Shown here in pieces: positions 1 through 56,900 of a stretch of DNA of 64,000 nucleotides; position 1 is the first letter of the stretch; each line of letters starts with the position of its first letter. The notes under the pieces are model-generated. The model saw only the letters and a list, made by a program, of their open reading frames with translations. It did not search any database and was not told where the DNA came from. Source of the stretch: Eunapius fragilis (Eukaryota; Porifera; Demospongiae; Spongillida; Spongillidae); the NCBI GenBank assembly GCA_963681505.1, contig OY811974.1, positions 3,707,271 through 3,771,270 on the forward strand, in the 5' to 3' direction. The translations under genes were made by a program, and so were the position numbers.

Positions 1-696
1 ACGGCTCGGATATCCGATAAAAGATCAGAAGTGTTCGATAAGCAAGAAGGAAACAAATCCTACAAGTTAACATCAACATCTGTTAAACAAATATAAAAAG
101 AAAATACAATGCTGTGTACATTCCTGATAGTATACGTCATTGCAAGTATTACGACTTTCTGTTAATCTATATAGGCTGTTAATTCTTTTTACTAAAAACT
201 ATTAACTACCGGTACCAATTATCTTCCTTTATATAGATGATATTGACGTTACGTATAATCAATGATGAGACGTGGACTTCGGGTCTTTCTGTATATTGAT
301 AATGTGAAATTATGTAAAACCAATGATAAGACGTGTAGTTCATTCACTTCGTTAAGAAAGCGCATTTCATGCTCTTTTGAGATAGTTAACCATTGCTTTC
401 GATTAGCAAAATGGAAACATACGGTATTGGATTAAGTGTATCTTCGCACTGCTACATTGCATGTATTGTACATTCTACAATTCCTTCGAGTAATTACTAA
501 TCACCGGCTAATTCTAACCATACAAATGCTCGGAACCTAACAATCACGGATGATGACAATTATTACGCTGAAAAGCTATGGAGTTCATAGTTCATTAGCT
601 CAATGTTCAATACAATGATGATTTTATTGCGATATGAGAAAGCGTTTTGAAAGTATTATTTCTGTACTATGAACAGGTTGAAAAGTTAAACTTACC

Positions 697-1395
697 CTCA
701 GGTATGTTAAGACTGGTTACACTGTATTTGGAATTTTTATTTTCGGCGAATTCAAACATTACAACATGCCGCTTTTCTGTTTGGGTACTTCTTGAAGGTA
801 TTCTCTTTATACCAAATCTTTGTTCAATGATCCCGCAAATTAATTCAATTGATAGTTGTCATAGCAACCTTAGTAGTTTAATGCATCGAGCTCCGAAATA
901 TGGGGGCGTTTCTTTACGTTTTCGCAAAACCCGGGTGATTTAATATTGTTGTTTGTGGACAAAACCTGTTATATACTGTTTAGTTGATACTGGTCTGACT
1001 ATTGTGGGTGGGCACAACGAAATCTAACATCGCTTGCACAACGAAAATGATGAATTTTTTGCTTAATTTTTCGTAGTTTTAATGTTTGTCTGCAAGCGCT
1101 CGAAGCGTTTCGAAATAATGATCAAAAAGCCTAGTATAATGATTAAATCCCTGCAGAAACATGCGAAAAACTATTCTTTAATTACCGGGTTTTCAATTCC
1201 AACATTAAGTCAATTATTTCACCGTGCGTAACCGTTGTCATAGAAACAACATTATATATTAATTACGCGTTATCCATCGAAAATGTTGGACATTCTTAAT
1301 CAGTGGTAACGTCTGTGTATGAATATTTATAAATGAACGCTTCCTTTGGCAGCCATTTAATAATTTTAAGTGTTGTCAGTCTTAACACACCTGAG
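697..1395 (+). mobile_element. 0.7-kb MITE nested in the left arm
   Basis: The element is bounded by 19-bp terminal inverted repeats: CTCAGGTATGTTAAGACTG on the left, and on the right a sequence whose reverse complement is CTCAGGTGTGTTAAGACTG. A second complete copy lies at 6295-7007. A 98-codon reading frame overlaps its left half and is shared between copies, but it has no recognisable domain and its first codons lie outside the element, so I treat the element as non-coding. It contains GTTGTCATAGCAAC at 856-869, an RFX X-box-like motif. The superfamily is not clear, because the target-site duplication cannot be read cleanly. Confidence 0.85.
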
Positions 1396-1811
1396 CTATT
1401 GTGGATGCCGCATGAGCGTGTTGGCGTGGCGTACCAGCAAGTTGCTGTATCCAGGGCTTGTAATTGATATCATCGAAGTGCATGAATTACGCGATATGCC
1501 GTTTAATAATCATAATTCATCGTAAAATAACCTTAATTCTTTTCTAGAACCATAAGACAGCCGTGTTTGTGCTTATATAGAACCATCAACGAAATACAAT
1601 CATATGTGCACACCCTGTAGAGAGTGTCTAAACATGTATAAATTGACATTCTGGCACCTAACAATAATGCTGTTAAGATTTTTCAAATATCATTGCAGTC
1701 CCAATTAGAACAATAATAGCTAAGTCAATGGCAGTTGTTATTGACAATGTTAACAGATATTTAGTTACATGTTTGAACACAATTGAACTATCATTTTAAT
1801 GAACACTATAG

Positions 1812-2718
1812 TTAACTGATCATCACTTCTTGGCAAGACTTTCCAAGTCATGGTAATGCTTGGCAAGTCTTGACAAGACTTGACGATAATTTTTCTTAGG
1901 GTTGTAATTAACAACCTTAATAAGATCAAAATTTTTGAAAACGCAGGCCCGTAGGCTTATGGGTTCCCGGATTAGTTCCGGCCACCCTATTCCAAGATTA
2001 ATTTTTTGTGTGAGAGGAGGTGGATTTAGCAATTCAGGTAGTATTATGTATAATAATGATAAGGAACCCCCCCCCCCCCCCCCCCCCCCACCACCACCAG
2101 CCATTATAGCCAAAGATTAATTATCAGCATCACGAGGCCGGAGGATGTGAAGCAGAGCTAGAGAAAGAAGACACTAATCTAGTACTGAAAGTGGTGTCGT
2201 CACATATAGCTTGTCACACTTGACGATAGTGTATCTCTAAGCCGAAATTCTCAACAATATAGAGCGATTCATTAATTTCCTGTCGCTTGTATCGAGCTAA
2301 GTGGGCTGTTGATGCAAAGAATAATGTACGACCCTACATGATGTACTTGACCTAAGCAAAGAAAACGTGATGCATCATCACTTAGCATTCCATACGATCC
2401 AAGCCTTCACCTTTTGCAACACTGAATTATTACGAATGGTACAGTATCATTGATTCGCTATATGCACCTCTAATTAGTCTTTCATCCATAAATTTAATTA
2501 ATATAATATTTACGTATATCAAACGAGCAATTCCATGATAAAAGTCATTAATTGAGAGTGAACGCTATTGGGGAGGCGATACAAGAACTCATAAACCCTG
2601 TTATCATTAATGGAGGGTAGGGAGTTTTAGAATTCAATTCTACCTTCTTTATATTATAAAAAATATGCAGCTGCAAGCCGAAGCGGGAAAAGAATATATC
2701 AAGGCGTTATGTCTCATG
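1812..2718. other. Spacer of the inverted repeat, no gene seen
   Basis: This is the unpaired centre of the inverted repeat. It contains short TTGGCAAGACTT-like direct repeats near 1828-1885 and a 23-base poly-C tract at 2067-2089 followed by CCA triplets. Around 2186-2310 it has weak resemblance to 8345-8475. No coding region is supported: open frames here translate the poly-C tract. Confidence 0.7.
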
Positions 2719-2806
2719 CTCAGGTATGTTAAGACTGGCTACACTAAATTGCAAATTCAAACATTACAGCATGCCGCTTTTCTGTTTGGGTACTTCTTGT
2801 AGCTAT
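2719..2806 (+). mobile_element. Truncated copy of the 0.7-kb MITE
   Basis: This starts with the CTCAGGTATGTTAAGACTG end and follows the MITE through its first 80 or so bases, with a deletion of the TTTGATTTTTCGG region. It then stops at the junction with the right palindrome arm. The junction shares AGCTAT between the MITE and the arm, a possible microhomology breakpoint. Confidence 0.75.
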
Positions 2807-3198
2807 AGTGTTCATTAAAATGATAGTTCAATTGTGTTCAAACATGTAACTAAATATCTGTTAACATTGTCAATAACAACTTGTTCTAATTGGGACTGCA
2901 ATGATATTTGAAAAATCTTAACAGCATTATTGTTAGGTGCCAGAATGTCAATTTATACATGTTTAGACACTCTCTACAGGGTGTGCACATATGATTGTAT
3001 TTCGTTGATGGTTCTATATAAGCACAAACACGGCTGTCTTATGGTTCTAGAAAAGAATTAAGGTTATTTTACGATGAATTATGATTATTAAACGGCATAT
3101 CGCGTAATTCATGCACTTCGATGATATCAATTACAAGCCCTGGATACAGCAACTTGCTGGTACGCCACGCCAACACGCTCATGCGGCATCCACAATAG

Positions 3199-3897
3199 CT
3201 CAGGTGTGTTAAGACTGACAACACTTAAAATTATTAAATGGCTGCCAAAGGAAGCGTTCATTTATAAATATTCATACACAGACGTTACCACTGATTAAGA
3301 ATGTCCAACATTTTCGATGGATAACGCGTAATTAATATATAATGTTGTTTCTATGACAACGGTTACGCACGGTGAAATAATTGACTTAATGTTGGAATTG
3401 AAAACCCGGTAATTAAAGAATAGTTTTTCGCATGTTTCTGCAGGGATTTAATCATTATACTAGGCTTTTTGATCATTATTTCGAAACGCTTCGAGCGCTT
3501 GCAGACAAACATTAAAACTACGAAAAATTAAGCAAAAAATTCATCATTTTCGTTGTGCAAGCGATGTTAGATTTCGTTGTGCCCACCCACAATAGTCAGA
3601 CCAGTATCAACTAAACAGTATATAACAGGTTTTGTCCACAAACAACAATATTAAATCACCCGGGTTTTGCGAAAACGTAAAGAAACGCCCCCATATTTCG
3701 GAGCTCGATGCATTAAACTACTAAGGTTGCTATGACAACTATCAATTGAATTAATTTGCGGGATCATTGAACAAAGATTTGGTATAAAGAGAATACCTTC
3801 AAGAAGTACCCAAACAGAAAAGCGGCATGTTGTAATGTTTGAATTCGCCGAAAATAAAAATTCCAAATACAGTGTAACCAGTCTTAACATACCTGAG
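3199..3897 (-). mobile_element. 0.7-kb MITE nested in the right arm
   Basis: Mirror image of the copy at 697-1395, with identical ends and interior where compared. It lies at exactly the symmetrical position, so it was duplicated with the arm and did not insert independently. Confidence 0.9.
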
Positions 3898-4611
3898 GGT
3901 AAGTTTAACTTTTCAACCTGTTCATAGTACAGAAATAATACTTTCAAAACGCTTTCTCATATCGCAATAAAATCATCATTGTATTGAACATTGAGCTAAT
4001 GAACTATGAACTCCATAGCTTTTCAGCGTAATAATTGTCATCATCCGTGATTGTTAGGTTCCGAGCATTTGTATGGTTAGAATTAGCCGGTGATTAGTAA
4101 TTACTCGAAGGAATTGTAGAATGTACAATACATGCAATGTAGCAGTGCGAAGATACACTTAATCCAATACCGTATGTTTCCATTTTGCTAATCGAAAGCA
4201 ATGGTTAACTATCTCAAAAGAGCATGAAATGCGCTTTCTTAACGAAGTGAATGAACTACACGTCTTATCATTGGTTTTACATAATTTCACATTATCAATA
4301 TACAGAAAGACCCGAAGTCCACGTCTCATCATTGATTATACGTAACGTCAATATCATCTATATAAAGGAAGATAATTGGTACCGGTAGTTAATAGTTTTT
4401 AGTAAAAAGAATTAACAGCCTATATAGATTAACAGAAAGTCGTAATACTTGCAATGACGTATACTATCAGGAATGTACACAGCATTGTATTTTCTTTTTA
4501 TATTTGTTTAACAGATGTTGATGTTAACTTGTAGGATTTGTTTCCTTCTTGCTTATCGAACACTTCTGATCTTTTATCGGATATCCGAGCCGTAGCGCAA
4601 TTGGCTTAACC

Positions 4612-4913
4612 GGCCATGGATTCTAGAATATCTATACTACTAAAATAATAATAGTGATGCTATGATTTCACAGAGGTAATGCAATACATTTAAATCCTAT
4701 ACTTCAACATCTGTGCGTTTAATTTTAAACGAATATAGAAAAATAAACAAAAACGGATGTGATGTTTACATCATTACTGTATTTTTATATTTGCATTGAT
4801 GTCCACATCAATACTGTTAATTGATGTCCACATCAATACTGTTTTAACAGATGTTGATGTAGACCTGTAGGGTTTCTTTTACCGAGCATAAGCATGAAGG
4901 CAATTGGCTTAAC
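4612..4913. repeat. Degenerate short relative of the arm ends
   Basis: 4842-4913 resembles the right-arm terminus (TTTTAACAGATGTTGATGT, then CAATTGGCTTAACC), with internal losses. 4692-4745 resembles the same terminus inverted. 4612-4681 is also repeated, inverted, at about 11007-11075 (TAATAGTGATGCTATGATTT core). Two copies of TTGATGTCCACATCAATACTG lie in tandem at 4797-4842. This looks like an internally deleted, aged family member. Confidence 0.6.
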
Positions 4914-5754
4914 CATTAAGCCTTTGAAAGCAAATACTAACAATGGATTGCATCAATACGTATTAGTGGTAGCTATATACAGTACAGATGCGATGGAGAT
5001 ATCGTCATTATCGCAAGATATCAATATAAAATTATTGAGGCTTAACCTTTAATCTCCAGGCAGCGGTCCTTGATTTAGACTGCTAAAGTCCTAGTCTAGG
5101 ACCACCACATACAGCTTCGAAATTAAACGTTGTAATTGTATTAAATGAGTTTATTGGTGAAAAAAAGAGATCTCTGTTTTTGCTTGTGACTTCACACCCA
5201 TATGTACTCTATTTCCAGGAAACACATTTTAACACAAGTAAAACACTGCCTTATAATTGTACTCCAATTTATGCATACATTGTGCTTCAAAAATATATGA
5301 TGAGTCAAATGAATTTGGTTAAATGATTGCATTCACATGAATACCAGCACCAACATGATTTAATTGCATTTTGTATTTACATGGTATGTCATGTAAATAC
5401 AATTAGCTGTAATAATCAAAAGTAATATTTCTTCTGTTAGTGGCTAACTTATTAATACCCTTACAAACAGCCCGCAGACATCAATGACTCGCTATACAAT
5501 AATGTTATTCCATGCATGCATGGCAGCAGTTTTCAGCGCTATTCCACTTCTCCACAGCAGCACCATGACCTTACCTATAGGGTACGACATATCACTTTTA
5601 CATGCACTCTCATGTCATTCTTACATTTCATCTCTCTATGTTCAATTAACGTATTGAAGCTATCAGTATTAGAAATTGCCTTCAAAAACATTATCGTTAA
5701 AGCTTGGAATTTTAATCCGACTACCTCGATTGAATCGTAGAAAGTTTAATACAC
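4914..5754. other. Intergenic, no gene seen
   Basis: AT-rich DNA. At 5042 the sequence TTAACCTTTAATCTCC is the same 16-base end seen on the piggyBac-like element at 53341, followed by a GGTCC/GGACC hairpin. I found no partner end, so it may be a solo terminus. Otherwise nothing is recognisable. Confidence 0.6.
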
Positions 5755-6035
5755 ATACAAGTAAGCAGTGCGAAGATAGTACTGAAAGTTTCAACAACGA
5801 TTAATCTCATACCGTATGATGTTCCCATTTTTCTTATCGAAAGCATTGGTTGATTATCTGAAATGCTCTAACATGCAATGCTCTGTTCTAACGTAAGTAT
5901 ATGAACTACACATGTTATCATTGATTTCAATCTGGAAGATAAATGACACTTAAAATGGTTTCAAGAAGGTGTATGAATAAACAGCCTGCTTTATTAGAAA
6001 GTCACAATACTTGCATGAGTTGGTCTCAGGACACT
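5755..6035 (-). repeat. Diverged partial copy of the palindrome arm
   Basis: This matches the right arm around 4140-4470 in the same orientation (for example GCAGTGCGAAGATA, then TTATCGAAAGCATTGG, GAACTACACATGTTATCATTG and ACAGCCTG). It has many substitutions and indels, so it is clearly older than the 1-4593 pair. Confidence 0.7.
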
Positions 6036-6294
6036 ATGCAACGGGATTGTAGAGCGTAGTATTTCGCTACAATAACTTATCATAATCTCTGACGTATCGA
6101 ATCTAGTGATGGTAGGTGACCTTTAAGGATTGGCAACAGCAACCAGTTTTTAAATTCCGAGGCATTCCAATAATTTAAGTGCTCAGAATTCATGTGGAGG
6201 GCGTTGCTGTTCAAGAAGTTGATCAATAATACGAAGATGTTTGCTCAGGTAAAATGTCTCTTCGTGTTTACAAGAATCAAACGACAGTTGCATT

Positions 6295-7007
6295 CTCAGG
6301 TATGTTAAGACTGGCTACACTGTATTTGGAATTTGATTTTTCGGCGAATTCAAACATTACAACATGCCGCTTTTCTGTTTGGGTACTTCTTGAAGCTATT
6401 CTCTTTATACCAAATCTTTGTTCAATGATCCCGCAAATTAATTCAATTGATAGTTGTCATAGCAACCTTAGTAGTTTAATGCATCGCGCTCCGAAATATG
6501 GAGGCGCTTCTTTACGTTTTCGCAAAACCCGGGTGATTTAATATTGTTGTTTGTGGACAAAAACAGTTATATATTGTTTATTTGATACTGGTCTAACTAT
6601 TGTGGGTGGGCACAACGAAATCTAACATCGTTTGCATAATTTGCACAACGAAAATGTGCTTAATTTTAATGTTTGTCTGCAAGCGCTCGAAGCGTTTCGA
6701 AATAATGATCAAAAAGCCTAGTATAATGATTAAATATGGGTATCCCAGAAGTAGAAGAACTGCAGAAACATGCGAAAAACTATTCTTTAATCACCCGGGT
6801 TTTCAATTCTAACATTAAGTCAATTATTTCACCGTGCGTAACCGTTGTCATAGTAACAACATTATATATTAATTACGCGTTATTAATCGAAAATGTATTG
6901 GACATTATTAATCAGTGGTAACGTCTGTGTATGAATATTTATGAATAAACGCTTCCTTTGGCAGCCATTTAATAATTTTAAGTGTAGTCAGTCTTAACAC
7001 ACCTGAG
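6295..7007 (+). mobile_element. 0.7-kb MITE, isolated copy
   Basis: Complete copy with the CTCAGGTATGTTAAGACTG end at 6295 and the matching inverted end at 7007. It is close in sequence to the nested copies, with scattered changes and small indels. It carries two RFX X-box-like motifs: GTTGTCATAGCAAC at 6453-6466 and GTTGTCATAGTAAC at 6844-6857. It abuts a transposase relic on its right (7008 onward), so it may have inserted into that older transposon. Confidence 0.88.
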
Positions 7008-30408: not shown

Positions 30409-30870
30409 TTTTGCAGGGCATTCTGAATGAGTCATTGTCTAGAAATGTACCTTGTATCATTGGTGGTGTGCTTCCTCAGTTTAGCTGCATGTACGGCTGT
30501 ATACACTTACTAAGTTGAGGGCTGGCATAATGGAACACTGCAGTCATTTCTCCTGAAGTCCTCATTCATGGGAGGAGGGGCCAGGCCTAATGGCATATGA
30601 AGGAATTTTTAAAAAGCAAGCTCATAGTGTGGCCACAGTACAAAGATGAGCTATATCAAATAGGCCCACGAGCACGTCACAAGAATACAAATGCACACAC
30701 ATATATACCAATGCCATTTATAAATGCTAACCTGCACACAAATAACAACACATTCCATGTCATGCTTGCCTGTGTGCACTTCAGATAATGCTATATAAAG
30801 TAGATGGTCTTGATGGAGCTGATCATCGCCCACTGTGCAAACTGTGACAGGGATGTAAATGTGCATATGT

Positions 30871-31220
30871 CACAGGGAAAAGTTATAAACGTCCAGCCTG
30901 GATTTTTAGGCTGGTTTTTAACAAAAACCCATCCTGGAAATGGAGCAAATAGCGTAAAAACCATCCTGGGATTGAGCGGCCAGGGTGGGAATAGATATGG
31001 TTCTACCCTGGTTCTGTCAAACAAAAACCATGTTGAGGTAATAATTATATTCATACTTCAACATGGGTTTTGTTCGACCAAATCAGGGTAGAACAACAGA
31101 TTTTACACTATTCCCACCTGGACGTTCAATCCCAGGATGGTTTTTACGCTATTAGGATGGGTTTTTGTTAAATACCTGCCAAAAAAAATCCAGTCTGGAC
31201 GTTTATAACTTTTTCCTGTG
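30871..31220. mobile_element. 350-bp fold-back MITE, CACAGGGAAA ends
   Basis: Arms of about 165 bp pair across a short loop centred at 31045. The left begins CACAGGGAAAAGTTATAAAC; the right ends with the inverse (GTTTATAACTTTTTCCTGTG). TGT flanks both sides (30868-30870, 31221-31223), a 3-bp target duplication. The element at 61872-62042 shares the CACAGGGAAA end and also has a 3-bp duplication (ACT). Confidence 0.88.
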
Positions 31221-50900: not shown

Positions 50901-53900
50901 GGACATTCATGTATGAATTTAATTTTAAGGAAGTCGCCACAAATTGAGTATTAAGTGTTGCAACAATCAACACTTCATTCACAGTTTACTTTTTATGGAC
51001 AGCTTGCTTTTGTCAAGGAAGCACTTGCTGTTGTCAAACCAACTAATTGCCCACCAAACAATGAATGTCATACATGTCCTGTCTATGGAAAACCAAAGCA
51101 CATTAGAGGTAATATATATTACTACTGCTTCATACTATGGTTCCTAAGACCAACTTTTTTTTTTAAATTACCAAATTTGAGTTCTAACGGTTGCCATTTT
51201 GTTGTTGAACTTCAAACACTATAAAGGTGTTTTGATAGGTAGCTCAATGTACAATGTTGATTTACTTAATGGAACAACAATTCATGGTTGTCACTGCATG
51301 ACAGATTATACTGAACATGTACATAAAATGTCTAGTAATATTTGGGTTTTATGACAAATCATGTTTGTGCTTTTTTTCAATAAAACTGCTGTAAAATAGC
51401 ATTAATTTCAAACCCATATGGCTAAACTACCCACATGCATATTTTCAGCAATTAGTTCCTGTTTTGACACATTATGAACCATTTACACTTGTCCATACCA
51501 AAGTTTGGTAACCGCACATAAAATTGAACAAAGGAGCGACTCACCAGCATCAAAATGGCAATGTGCTCGACAATAGAGTCAGAATCTGCAGATTACTTGT
51601 CTATAATCTATGTATTGATCTTCAATTTCTTGATTATAGATTAAGTTAAATTCAACATTCTGCTGTATCTGATAGCAACAGGACTCCTTCGGGTACGTTG
51701 CCATTTTGCTGGAGAGACGTTCCTTCATTCTGTCCTGAGTTCATCTCATCACTTGCATTGTGTAGCCCCCAGTTAATGTGCATGTTGTAACCAGCTCAGC
51801 CGATATTGAGTTAGTGACAATCAGTACTGTCAAGTGCTGCCTTCAAGAACTCCACCTGAATTCGTCGGAAGTCCTCTTACACATGACAGATTATTTCAGT
51901 TTGTTGGCTTAGTCTTGCAGCCTGGGTGTCCTACGTTCAATTCTTAGGGCGCCAAGTGCACGTATGCTTGCAGTAATTGCCATCTGTGTCACACGGTTAT
52001 TCACTCTGTACACAGAAAAGCCCTAAGGGCATAGAGCTATATGACTGTAGTGTTGGTATTTCATAGAAAAGAAAGCAGGAACTAACAGCTGCAGGTGTAT
52101 GTGTAATGGCGTCTCTATCGTCTCCAACACCTTAGAATATAAGCACCTTCTTATTCTAACATGAGAGATCGAAGCCTTTTTAAGAACCTGGACACCAGAA
52201 ATAACACCCATGGATAAAACTATCGTATTTTCATCATCTGTTATATTCTATGTACGGCTTCGAATCCCTCACCACTTGGGTCCAGGTTTTGTTGGCAAGC
52301 GTTCTTTTCCAAGGTAGTACACCAAACAAACATCATAAAATCATTCTTATATCGTAGTTAATATCTTTAAGTAAGCTAACGGCAAAGCTCTTCAAAAATG
52401 ATGACTACTATGCAACTGGCAGCCATATTTAAAAACATTGCTGGCAAATAATCAATTAATAATGGATGCTCAAGGAGTTAATCACCCTCCAGTTTTATAG
52501 ACATTAATACCATCAATCCACACATGAATGATGCAGTTGTTTATATGCTTCCTCTCAGCGGAATGTTATGAAGGCACTAATTTTGTCTTGACCTTATCAC
52601 TGAAATGCTACATGTATGTGACCTATCCTTCTGTGGCTATTTGTTGTACTGACAAAGATTTAATGACATGTGTGTTCATGGCCATTTCACCCAGTACCCA
52701 GGTAACCTGAAAATAATTCTGTAGCTTGCATTTCTTTGGGTGTCACACGATGTTTTATTCTTTCTATTGGTGTCATTTTGGTGAGGAATGCTAAATTTAT
52801 GTGCTACTGTGGATGCAAATATGTTCTTTCAGGCATTTAATTGTTGTCATGTTTACGTCAGGTTTACAATTATGTTCTAGGATGAAACACTTGTGCACTG
52901 CAGCCTGATGGAGCTTGAAAATTCAGAACTAACATTTGATGTGCTCTTTGGAAAACAAGTATTCAAGGTATGATACACAAAGGCTGTTTGCATAACTATT
53001 GGCATAGTGTTTGTACATCCTAATATTGTATTCAAATTTGAAAACTGATGATTTCAAGTAGTTAATGAAGTTTAGATCTTGTAAGTGTCTATTCTTGTTC
53101 CCTATTATTGTTGCAACATAGCACCTGCTGTATTAAATGTCAATCATGATTCATGAGCGGAGTGTGTTTAGCACCACTGAGTTATGAAATATGTGGTTAA
53201 TATTTTTTGTGCTGTGGTGGTACCCTGGTAACCAATCGCATTCATTCCCTCTTGTCTAGGTCTATGCCAGATTGAGGCCATATTTTAAGGAATTCCTGCA
53301 AACAGTTTCTGAATTATTTGAGGTAAATTAAAAACATTGTTTAACCTTTAATCTCCCGACGTCCTATGCATAGGACGCTTGCAAGTAAAAATTAGTATTT
53401 TGGGCAAACGATATGTGAGAAGAACGAAGTATAAATTCTACTGCCTGTAGTAGTAGTTTTCATAGTAGAAGATTGTACATCCTCCTTACTATGCGTGCTT
53501 GATGGAGATATACAGTCAAAAGTAAAACTGCTTGTTTTTGGTAAAGGGGTGTGTTTGGAAAATGTTCAAACGGGCACAAGTATTGTCAGAACGATAAAGA
53601 AGACCTAAGGAAAGAAGGAGTTCGTAAGGTAGGCTTTGGCACTTAACACAGTAAAGATACATCTAGTAGAGTGGGAAGACGAGGGCTCCACAAAAGGGGA
53701 AAGAAAACTCCACCGTGAAATAAATCAGGACGATGATAATACTCATTTGCCAGTAAATGATGATGAGAGTGAAGAAACTTCCATGGAGGAAGAGGTTGAT
53801 GACAATGTTGGAAGGCGTGGTATACTACATACATGCACGTGCATATACAATCTTTGACTCTCTTTATACTTTTTCATCACAATGATTTACCTGGTCCTGC

Positions 53901-56900
53901 TTCAGAATTTGATCACCATTACCAGCCACAAGCAACCTTTATACCTCATGAGAGTCTTTGGGCAGTACGAGATGCCTTACTAATTGACAGAGTTGGACTG
54001 TAATTATTTAATCTTAATTTATGTGTATGATGCAAGTTAGTTATGTTTTAGCACACCCATATGAACAGAGAATAAAGCAAAATTGTACTCTAGAAATGGT
54101 CAGCAAATCAGAAAATCCTGGTACATCCATGTAATTATTATGAAATACAGTCAATACATTAGCAAAGCAACTTCTAATACCAACAAGATAAGTCATAACT
54201 GGTTGCAAAAACATTGGGCTACTGGGACCAATGCCATCAGTGAAAAACAGCCCAGTACTTGAAAAAGATCTTAGAATTTTGTGTATGGTACAAAGCTTTT
54301 CATCAGCCACAAGGGTGGTAGCATGCATAAGAGTGGTCAAATAATCAAGCATGTTCTTAGTATAAGACATGTCTTTGGCACAGTGGAAAGAAAAAAGTAC
54401 GTTTTTAAGTTTGAGTTGTTGGCTTGAGAACGGAATGAACAATATGTATTTGTCTTTTGGGGATAGCTAAACAAGAAGTGCTGTATCGTCAGTAGAAAAC
54501 TGTAAAATGCATTGGAGTTGGAACTGTTGAGCAAAGATTGCATAAAGTAGCACACACACACAGCGTCATAAAACATTTTTAAAAAGGTATAGTTGTAATT
54601 TTTCTGTAACTATGAAATAATGCATTTTTAATGTCTATTGTCCTGAGTGGCCACCCGGGGGTACAATTGGACACCCGGGTGGACAGCAAAAAAAGTTTTT
54701 GCCGTTCGGTCATGGAAGGGACCTAGTGGCATTTAACGGTACCGGCTTATAGAACAAGTCTTTCTAGGATCGGGCCGAGATAAGTAAGGCTTAAATCCTT
54801 TCGATACCCGTAAAACGAGCCGTGCTAGCGGACCTATCCATTACGCTCCGTGCGGTACGTACATATCGTATACGTACCACGTAAGGTAAGTTTTTTTTGC
54901 CAACGTTCATACAGATAGTAAAATAGCTGTTTCTCTGGACTAGTGTTTGTCAACTAAAAGTGATTGAGAACTTTCACTGTCTGTTTAGGCCTATGTTTAA
55001 AAGGTCATGTACGAGTATAGTCTAGGCCTATACGCGTACATGTCCTTTTAAACATAGGTCTATACAGACAGCTGAAAGCTCTCAATCACCTTTTGTTGAC
55101 AAACACTAGTCCAGAGAAACAGCTATTTTACTATCTGTATGAACGTTGGCAAAAAAAACTTACCTTACGTAGCTCGTATACGATATGTACGTACCGCACG
55201 GAACGTAATGGATAGGTCTGCTAGCACGGCTCGTTTTACGGGTATCGAAAGGATTTAAGCCTTACTTATCTCGGCCCGATCCTAGAAAGACTTGTTCTAT
55301 AAGCCGGTACCGTTAAATGCCACTAGGTCCCTTCCATGACCGAACGGCAAAAACTTTTTTTGCTGTCCACCCGGGTGTCCAATTGTACCCCCGGGTGGCC
55401 ACTCAGGACAATAGACATTAAGGACCACATCCATTACTTGAATTTTACCGACCAACTTGGTGATGCAGAAATTAATTGACAATTTGTAAATTAAGTATGA
55501 AGTGTCATGAAACAACTGTGAAGATATGATTGCTAGGTAATTCAATTTCAATTTAATTTAAATGTTGAATGTTTGGTCCTACACGTATGGCCAGTCTCTG
55601 AAGATTAAAGGTTAATCCATTCAACATACATTTAAAACAGTAAATATGGTATGCTACATTTGAGTATGATAGGAGTACTGTTGAATGATGAATGGATGTC
55701 AAAATATCGGTATGTAACATTTTATTGCGCAGATTTCGCCTGCAATATTGTCTAGTTGGGATGATGTGCATTAATTAAGTGACCATGATACATACATGTA
55801 CATCATCATTTTCAACCTGTGTCTACATCATTTAATGATAGATCGAACAAACGCCTACATGTAGGCGAAAAGTGCTGTTTTAGCCTACATGTAGGCATTC
55901 TATTGCAACGTATGGTCCTTGCATTCAATGCCGTATAAAACTTTGAACTTGAATAAAGTAACACTTAAGCATAGGGCTTCGTTTTTAATTCGCTTTGGAG
56001 CTCATTCAATCATTGGCTCTTTAGATACACGATCCAGATGGAGGAGCGTACAAAAATTGCCTACGATCTTGATGAAAGATGAGTATAAAAGTTGGAAAGC
56101 GTGTGTATTAGGCAAAAATTATATCTGCCTATAAAACGAAGAATGCTTCTAGTAAATCGGAACAACTCCAGCTAAATGAGGGGTTATTCCCAACAGAGCA
56201 CTAGCAGCACGCTGGCATTGTTTTCTGCCGCCAGCTTGCAAGTAGCCCTCTTTATTATATTGGTCCTTATTATTTCAAGCATTGGGTGTTTGTACATTGT
56301 TTGGAATAAAGTGGTTTACAACACCTACATGTAGGTTAACGCGCCTACGCGTAGGTGACGATCTATCATTAACACTCCACACATTCAGTATAGTGATTGC
56401 AATAATGAAGTTAATAAATTTTTCCCTCAGGTGATTATTTTTACTGCTTCGACAAAAGTTTATGCTGATCAACTATTGAATTTCTTGGACCCTTCTCGCA
56501 AGTTGATACGTCACAGACTTTTTCGAGAACACTGTGTGTGTGTTGGAGGAAATTTTATAAAAGATTTGGGAATACTTGGGCGTGATCTTGCAAAGACAGT
56601 TATTATTGATAACTCACCCCAAGCATTTGGATATCAGGTTGGTAATTTTTGCATGTAAATGTGTTCTGATTGTGAAATGGAGTATTTCTTAACAGCTGTC
56701 GAATGGAATCCCAATTTTAAGCTGGTTTAAAGATGACAGAGATTCTGAACTTCTGCAGTTGATACCTTTTTTGGAGTCTTTGCTTGGAACTGTACGTTCA
56801 TTATTTTCTGTATTTTGCTACCTGGAGTGTGCCAATAGATTATTTTTTAAGGTTGTGATTACATTTGTTTTTGTAAATGTAGCACTTACACATACTCTTT

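Follow-up and report, generated by a model that had tools for sequence, protein, structure and literature searches.

How did one intron of a sponge gene come to hold three transposable elements, each bordered by TTAA, and does such a cluster mark a preferred place of insertion? The intron lies in a CTDSPL2-like gene of the freshwater sponge Eunapius fragilis, within a stretch of 64,000 nucleotides (contig OY811974.1, here contig C4, positions 3,707,271 to 3,771,270) that was analyzed as a whole and is called the window. The initial annotation of the window described the elements as three distinct piggyBac-type families and proposed a local hot spot. In our reading, to which we give a probability of roughly 0.93, they are non-autonomous piggyBac transposons, one from each of three related families, that integrated independently at TTAA sites in one intron. 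The genome searched comprised 218,937,333 bases in 24 contigs; according to PMC12616128, the assembly odEunFrag1.1 comprises 218.91 Mb in 23 chromosomes and, in addition, a mitochondrion of 28.5 kb, with chromosomes 1 and 4 of 24.99 Mb and 14.35 Mb, respectively.

Three elements in one intron

The features of the locus are as follows (window positions; a strand is assigned to the intron only).

53323..56430, + strand: host intron of the CTDSPL2-like gene, GT..AG borders, about 3.1 kb
53341..53344: TTAA, target-site copy to the left of the 2.3-kb element
53345..55611: 2.3-kb element, 2,267 bp, tips CCTTTAATCTCC / CCTTTAATCTTC
54628..54631: TTAA, target-site copy to the left of the palindrome; relatives of the 2.3-kb element without the palindrome have it once
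54632..55417: 786-bp palindrome inside the 2.3-kb element, both tips TGTCTATTGTCC
55418..55421: TTAA, target-site copy to the right of the palindrome
55612..55615: TTAA, target-site copy to the right of the 2.3-kb element
55832..55835: TTAA, target-site copy to the left of the 533-bp element
55836..56368: 533-bp element, both tips TGATAGATCG
56369..56372: TTAA, target-site copy to the right of the 533-bp element

The coordinates, inverted ends and exact TTAA flanks given for all three elements in the initial annotation were reproduced to the base, as was the estimate that they fill more than 2.8 kb of the 3.1-kb intron (2.80 kb measured). Removal of the elements and of one TTAA each leaves about 300 bp: a sponge intron enlarged about tenfold by three cut-and-paste piggyBac-type elements. 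The exon 3' of the intron encodes a NIF/CTD-phosphatase domain (PF03031, E = 3.7e-24, Pfam search), in agreement with the CTDSPL2 label of the gene.

The terminal bases are CC..GG in the 2.3-kb element and TG..CA in the palindrome and the 533-bp element. Without its nested insert and the extra TTAA, the 2.3-kb element measures 1,477 bp, and it carries a subterminal GTCCTATGCATAGGAC palindrome at its left end; the corresponding subterminal palindromes are CCACCCGGGTGG in the 786-bp element and CGCCTACATGTAGGCG and CCTACGCGTAGG in the 533-bp element. The 786-bp element consists of 349-nucleotide arms (98% complementary), 44-nucleotide inner arms (91%) and a 7-nucleotide center, with a whole-arm match of about 96 to 98%. 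Several other copies of the 533-bp family measure 561 bp between their TTAAs. The reading frames of the window elements are short, and one fragment searched against Pfam gave no match; with no transposase domain of their own seen in that fragment, and with ends common to the coding relatives described below, we class them as non-autonomous.

The window was scanned for TTAA followed by 12-bp inverted tips with partners within 5 kb. At ≤1 mismatch, 46 pairs were found, mostly in giant inverted repeats at 67-7000, and ten first-order Markov shuffles yielded 0 or 1 pair each. At ≤2 mismatches and outside 67-7000, the pairs were the three elements, two pairs within the palindrome, 30918-31171 and three weak 2-mismatch pairs (shuffles, 0 to 4). 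The TTAA-flanked, inverted-end elements in the intron exceed chance. The pair at 30918-31171 was rejected as a fourth element because it sits in a larger palindrome that extends beyond its TTAAs; this palindrome of about 340 bp (30870-31215, extent by eye) has TTAA within its arms, unlike the TTAA elements. The giant inverted repeats (approximately 67-1800 versus 2800-4527 and 3225-3750 versus 6440-6981) were near-exact in the TTAA scan, and a tip of the 2.3-kb family lies in their region, at 5042.

TTAA at occupied and empty sites

Because TTAA is its own reverse complement, the flanks alone cannot distinguish a target duplication from the end of an element. The palindrome, however, lies in a repeat whose other copies are without the insert. 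Eight closer relatives join both sides across one TTAA (near C15:3609185, C14:5397759, C14:3967865, C14:5426791, C5:5823856, C1:22569907, C1:22514846 and C1:10439362); the pair at about C1:22.5 Mb nearly duplicate each other, and those on C5 and at C1:10.4 Mb have small indels next to the TTAA. Four distant relatives (L063, L064, L065 and L068) also have one TTAA at this site, one on C19 reads TTTAA, and other insert-free relatives have an altered site (TTCA, TGAA, ATAA, GTAA or TAAA). In the 533-bp family, one copy (L070) sits in a repeat whose counterpart in L008 has a single TTAA, and for the 2.3-kb family a local duplication contains a relative (L065) in one half and a single TTAA in the other. 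A test at L071 returned simple-repeat matches only. Comparison with insertion-free related loci thus gave a single TTAA at eight places for the palindrome and at one place for each of the other families.

Copies in unrelated flanks are consistent with these sites. For the palindrome, TTAA was found at both ends in 6 of 7 loci (the window included) and at one end in the seventh (L006). Both TTAAs were exact in 6 of 10 fetched copies of the 533-bp family, the other four having mutated or missing ends, and several copies of the 2.3-kb family have TTAA in unrelated flanks, with some TTAAs altered. Sequence comparison thus identifies the TTAAs as the duplicated target sites of all three families, and the alternative that TTAA forms part of the inverted ends was rejected on the basis of the one TTAA at empty sites.

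Transposase-bearing relatives

Coding relatives were defined as longer elements with the same ends as a window family and a transposase matching PF13843 (DDE_Tnp_1_7), which we take to be the piggyBac domain (Pfam's own description is "Transposase IS4"). The coding relative of the 2.3-kb family is a 2,959-bp element at C9:3929397-3932363. The window element (minus the palindrome) aligns with it in pieces 1-351, 354-647 and 1133-1485 at 68 to 73% identity and in an additional 24-base piece at 92%, and the catalytic part of the C9 element (approximately 764-2517) is absent from the window copy. Of four transposase pieces from the C9 element and its relatives, three matched PF13843 (E = 4.6e-22, 8.4e-22 and 1.4e-9), and the fourth, C-terminal piece of C9-type elements had no Pfam match.

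In the palindrome family, reading covered 5 of the 8 long pairs and 6 of the 26 unpaired ends. Among them, an element at approximately C7:8176142-8180901 has palindrome-arm sequence at both ends (85 to 97% identity, in pieces) around a transposase whose two pieces differ in frame (PF13843, E = 3.5e-21 and 1.9e-10). Since the arm sequence stands at both of its ends, the window palindrome looks like such ends minus the middle. The 533-bp family has a relative at C2:3561367-3564015 with both ends and an open frame of 582 amino acids (E = 1.9e-41). Two further members of this family have broken frames: L134 (C3), with both ends, matches PF13843 at E = 7.3e-9 and 2.4e-7 and has a third piece below the cutoff (E = 0.016), and L133 (C2) has the left end (E = 1.5e-5). 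Two other long copies were rejected as coding relatives, each without a family search: a 2.5-kb palindrome copy on C8 (L069), which has a stranger at its center, and a 2.9-kb 533-type copy on C5 (L084), whose frames show nothing transposase-like by eye.

The transposases of the three families are related to one another. Identities were 24 to 43% between C7 and C9 in aligned pieces, 29 to 53% between C3 and C7/C9 in the catalytic and C-terminal pieces (the small N-terminal piece aligned weakly), and 93 to 94% between C2 and C3. Compared by eye with what we take to be the piggyBac motifs, the C9-type, C7 and C2 proteins show DE.MSSW or DESMGSW, ADSAF and IDVH in this order; L134 has ANSAF in place of ADSAF. 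The relatives end in a cysteine/histidine-rich C-terminal tail (by eye). At E ≤ 1, no chain of a piggyBac protein was found among Protein Data Bank sequences. Relatives from all families (L080, L106, L134 and L135) have a small N-terminal stretch, GKIKK..KGVI.. / VLRGKF.TQKGVV, before the catalytic part, with a weak KOW match in one of them (E = 0.2). Genome-wide, at least 117 PF13843 matches were found (116 of 483 candidates scored), including identical-score sets with open frames; the genome is rich in piggyBacs, some of them probably recent.

These transposases, lying between the same ends, carry the assignment of all three families to piggyBac beyond TTAA, a target that Kolobok shares, and at the sequence level we regard the assignment as established. 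Sola3 elements use TTAA as well. An origin of the two TG..CA families from Kolobok or Sola3 rather than from piggyBac could draw on the difference between their tips and the CC tip of the 2.3-kb family, and on the TTAA duplication of Kolobok, as described in PMC9587614. Both TG..CA families, however, have longer same-end members with a DDE_Tnp_1_7 transposase; the 533-bp family has a subterminal palindrome in common with the CC-tip piggyBac family; and Kolobok termini, as given in PMC9587614, are RR..YY, in contrast to the CC..GG and TG..CA tips and DDE_Tnp_1_7 transposases here. Such an origin is extremely unlikely, and it was rejected after the coding relatives had been found; no search directed at Sola3 was made.

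The claim of three distinct piggyBac-type families is supported. Each family has a PF13843 relative with the same ends, which also speaks against ends of other superfamilies, and the three window elements have no mutual BLAST-detectable similarity; their distinctness is qualified by transposase pieces that are 24 to 53% identical and by a subterminal palindrome shared by two families. The initial annotation proposed a search for active piggyBac transposases with matching ends; each family has a coding relative with its ends (C9, C7 and C2).

Several observations weigh against piggyBac integration at TTAA as the common origin. The empty sites are related loci elsewhere in the genome, not an orthologous allele of the intron; that of the 533-bp family (L070/L008) has a 5-base difference adjoining the TTAA, that of the 2.3-kb family concerns the relative L065 and not the window copy, and the other copies tested, including both window elements, gave no usable spanning match. 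The C9 transposase match has two internal stops, which may mark introns or breaks. In the C7 element, a frameshift separates the two transposase pieces, the right end reads GACATATTAA in place of the expected GACATTAA, a stranger is nested within, and the left side has a second stretch of inner-arm sequence. Finally, the palindrome and 533-bp tips start with TG, not CC. Given its defects, the C7 element is a relative of the palindrome's source, and a candidate source only.

Copy history, clustering and end recognition

The palindrome tip TTAATGTCTATTGTCCTGAGTGG had 179 + 179 genome matches on the two strands at ≤2 mismatches (reversed control, 0 + 0). Among the 100 ends listed, 74 formed 37 pairs, of which 19 spanned 774 to 829 bp, 9 spanned 440 to 466 bp, 1 spanned 259 bp and 8 exceeded 1 kb; 26 were unpaired. 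The four full copies that best matched the window palindrome, which are not a random sample, were 98.7 to 99.6% identical to it in the same orientation and 95.8 to 96.7% when flipped, and from this difference it follows that most arm differences predate the spread of the palindrome. The 533-bp tip TTAATGATAGATCG had 67 + 66 exact matches (reversed control, 2 + 2), and most of 20 unpaired ends sampled run on into the short element (L118, L122 and L123 have no continuation; L115, L116 and L129 a partial one). The window 533-bp copy was 90 to 95% identical to seven others without gaps, and 82 to 90% identical to copies in another comparison. Relatives of the 2.3-kb element mostly showed 65 to 88% identity, with a few short pieces at 91 to 95%. 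Being nested in the 2.3-kb element and having near-identical copies, the palindrome is younger than its host.

At C9:4497849-4506970, C20:5843718-5852651 and C3:6202294-6210626, matches to the left part of the 2.3-kb family are 8 to 9 kb away from matches to its right part, and these spans may be large composites, nested copies or neighbors; L056 and L057 have a helix-turn-helix-like frame (by eye) between such parts. Palindrome copies host other transposons in L069, L008, L081, L082, L083 and L106, several at or near the center or at TATA steps; these copies were chosen as longer or unpaired and give no rate. The insert in L069 has the 7-bp repeat ACTATAC, L082 and L083 contain, at TATA, the same element, one frame of which is THAP-like by eye, and the inserts in L081, L008 and L106 have what we take to be hAT-like tips. 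Incomplete palindrome copies occur in L107, L108, L109 and L111; L107 breaks at the palindrome center and L111 about 45 bp beyond, which hints that the full palindrome is unstable.

The ends, the TTAA duplication, the families, the coding relatives and the nesting order were observed directly, and our reading of the history is as follows. Each element entered an AT-rich, TTAA-rich intron by independent cut-and-paste integration at TTAA, moved, we infer, by the transposases of its relatives. The 2.3-kb copy is the oldest, a decayed and internally deleted relative of the 2.96-kb transposase-bearing element. The palindrome, the youngest, looks like the long inverted ends of another piggyBac minus its coding part, and it landed on a TTAA within the 2.3-kb element. 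The 533-bp element has the ends of a third piggyBac, one copy of which elsewhere has the open 582-amino-acid transposase frame. The route by which the short forms arose is, like their mobilization by these transposases, a proposal.

As RNA, the palindrome is predicted to form one long hairpin (-729 kcal/mol, versus a mean of -217 for 20 shuffles), and a role in silencing is speculation. If transcribed with the gene, such a hairpin might feed small-RNA silencing of coding piggyBac relatives, whose ends, in the C7 element, are 85 to 97% identical to the palindrome arms. Any transcribed palindrome would fold likewise, however, and the palindrome copies are young and scattered; we consider such a role very improbable.

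Does the cluster indicate a hot spot? After neighbors were merged, there were at least 82 places for the palindrome, at least 40 for the 533-type and at least 51 for the 2.3-kb type. Among the places listed, cross-family pairs within 5 kb numbered 1, 2 and 1, against uniform expectations of 0.15, 0.19 and 0.09; the window locus itself supplies one pair of each kind, and the other pair is C1:21354821 and 21359396. Same-family pairs were also above uniform among the places listed (533-533 within 50 kb, 5 versus 0.36; 2.3-2.3 within 20 kb, 5 versus 0.23), an excess that may reflect local hopping or segmental duplication. Either process may also account for the 533-family ends that follow one another at C2:2995286-3131383, over about 140 kb. 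The fetched loci with an end of any family number 109; three of them represent the window locus itself, and one more (L030) has two families, in a set where many loci overlap and some, at a few hundred bases, are too short to show neighbors. The density of TTAA, which the initial annotation had proposed to survey across the genome, was compared at the scale of the window: the bare intron is high, with 7 TTAAs in 301 bp versus 8.1 per kb, a level that 4 of 212 bins reach.

Three families in 3.1 kb, the low expectations for cross-family pairs and the common same-family pairs could all suggest that chromatin or DNA structure makes the intron a piggyBac insertion hot spot beyond its TTAA content. 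Yet without this locus one cross-family pair within 5 kb remains among the places listed, 1 of 106 other fetched loci with family ends has two families, the locus was picked since it is a cluster, the residual TTAA density offers a simple cause, and the same-family excess is explicable otherwise. We judge this explanation improbable. The local hot spot of the initial annotation is not supported: a special one is not needed, and a weak one is possible given the incomplete lists. Independent integration into a TTAA-rich intron remains our preferred reading.

The 2.3-kb and 533-bp families have different tips and a common subterminal palindrome, the 12-mer CCTACGCGTAGG, which occurs at 274 genome sites versus 6 for the reversed control. 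In the C9 element it lies 19 and 39 bp from the left tip and 23 bp from the right tip. The 533-bp copy L070 has CCTACATGTAGG 19 bp from the left tip, and CCTACGCGTAGG and CCTACATGTAGG at 14 and 34 bp from the right tip; the window palindrome has CACCCGGGTG 41 bp from its tip. Perfect palindromes of ≥10 bp thus start 14 to 23 and 34 to 41 bp from the tips in these three elements; the ends of the L134 copy have no perfect palindrome of ≥10 bp. We fetched 20 of 50 listed CCTACGCGTAGG sites (C1 and C2), chosen away from already known copies. By eye, 19 adjoin a recognizable tip (15 CCTTTAATCTCC-like and 4 TGATAGATCG-like), several of which have a mutated TTAA and some of which form near-identical pairs; 1 (L088) is without a tip of either family.

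In known piggyBacs, according to PMC11707139, cysteine-rich C-terminal domains bind subterminal palindromes, and by analogy those found here are putative binding sites of a C-terminal zinc domain. More tentatively, and as a somewhat unlikely possibility, related transposases might recognize a shared address, CCTACGCGTAGG, about 14 to 40 bp inside the ends while the tips diverged (CCTTTAATCTCC versus TGATAGATCG); a single cross-mobilization group could then include families whose tips differ, with the palindrome rather than the tip as the main determinant of specificity.

Like miniature inverted-repeat transposable elements (MITEs) or foldbacks derived from piggyBacs, the window elements are short, non-coding and present in many copies, and they have the ends of a coding relative. 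The 786-bp element differs in being almost all arm; usual MITEs have shorter and less perfect arms. With the piggyBac superfamily (Trichoplusia ni piggyBac and Myotis piggyBat), the sponge families share TTAA target duplication, DDE_Tnp_1_7 in longer relatives, a cysteine/histidine-rich tail after the catalytic part (by eye) and, with piggyBac and the left end of piggyBat, subterminal palindromes near the tips; the right end of piggyBat is without one (both points from PMC11707139). They differ from known piggyBacs in having their own tip and palindrome sequences, TG..CA tips in two of three families, and the extra small N-terminal stretch of their relatives' proteins. A literature search on sponge piggyBacs and TTAA foldbacks brought up no account of these families, although one may exist in print.

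The three families are additions to the known piggyBac superfamily, and the locus is an example of piggyBac families filling an intron in a compact sponge genome. With the 786-bp palindrome, it also offers a clear example of a foldback element that is made of the long ends of a transposon. Moreover, one genome offers three sets, each of a coding relative, a non-autonomous copy and a subterminal palindrome, that are suited to testing whether tip or palindrome sets the rule of end recognition.

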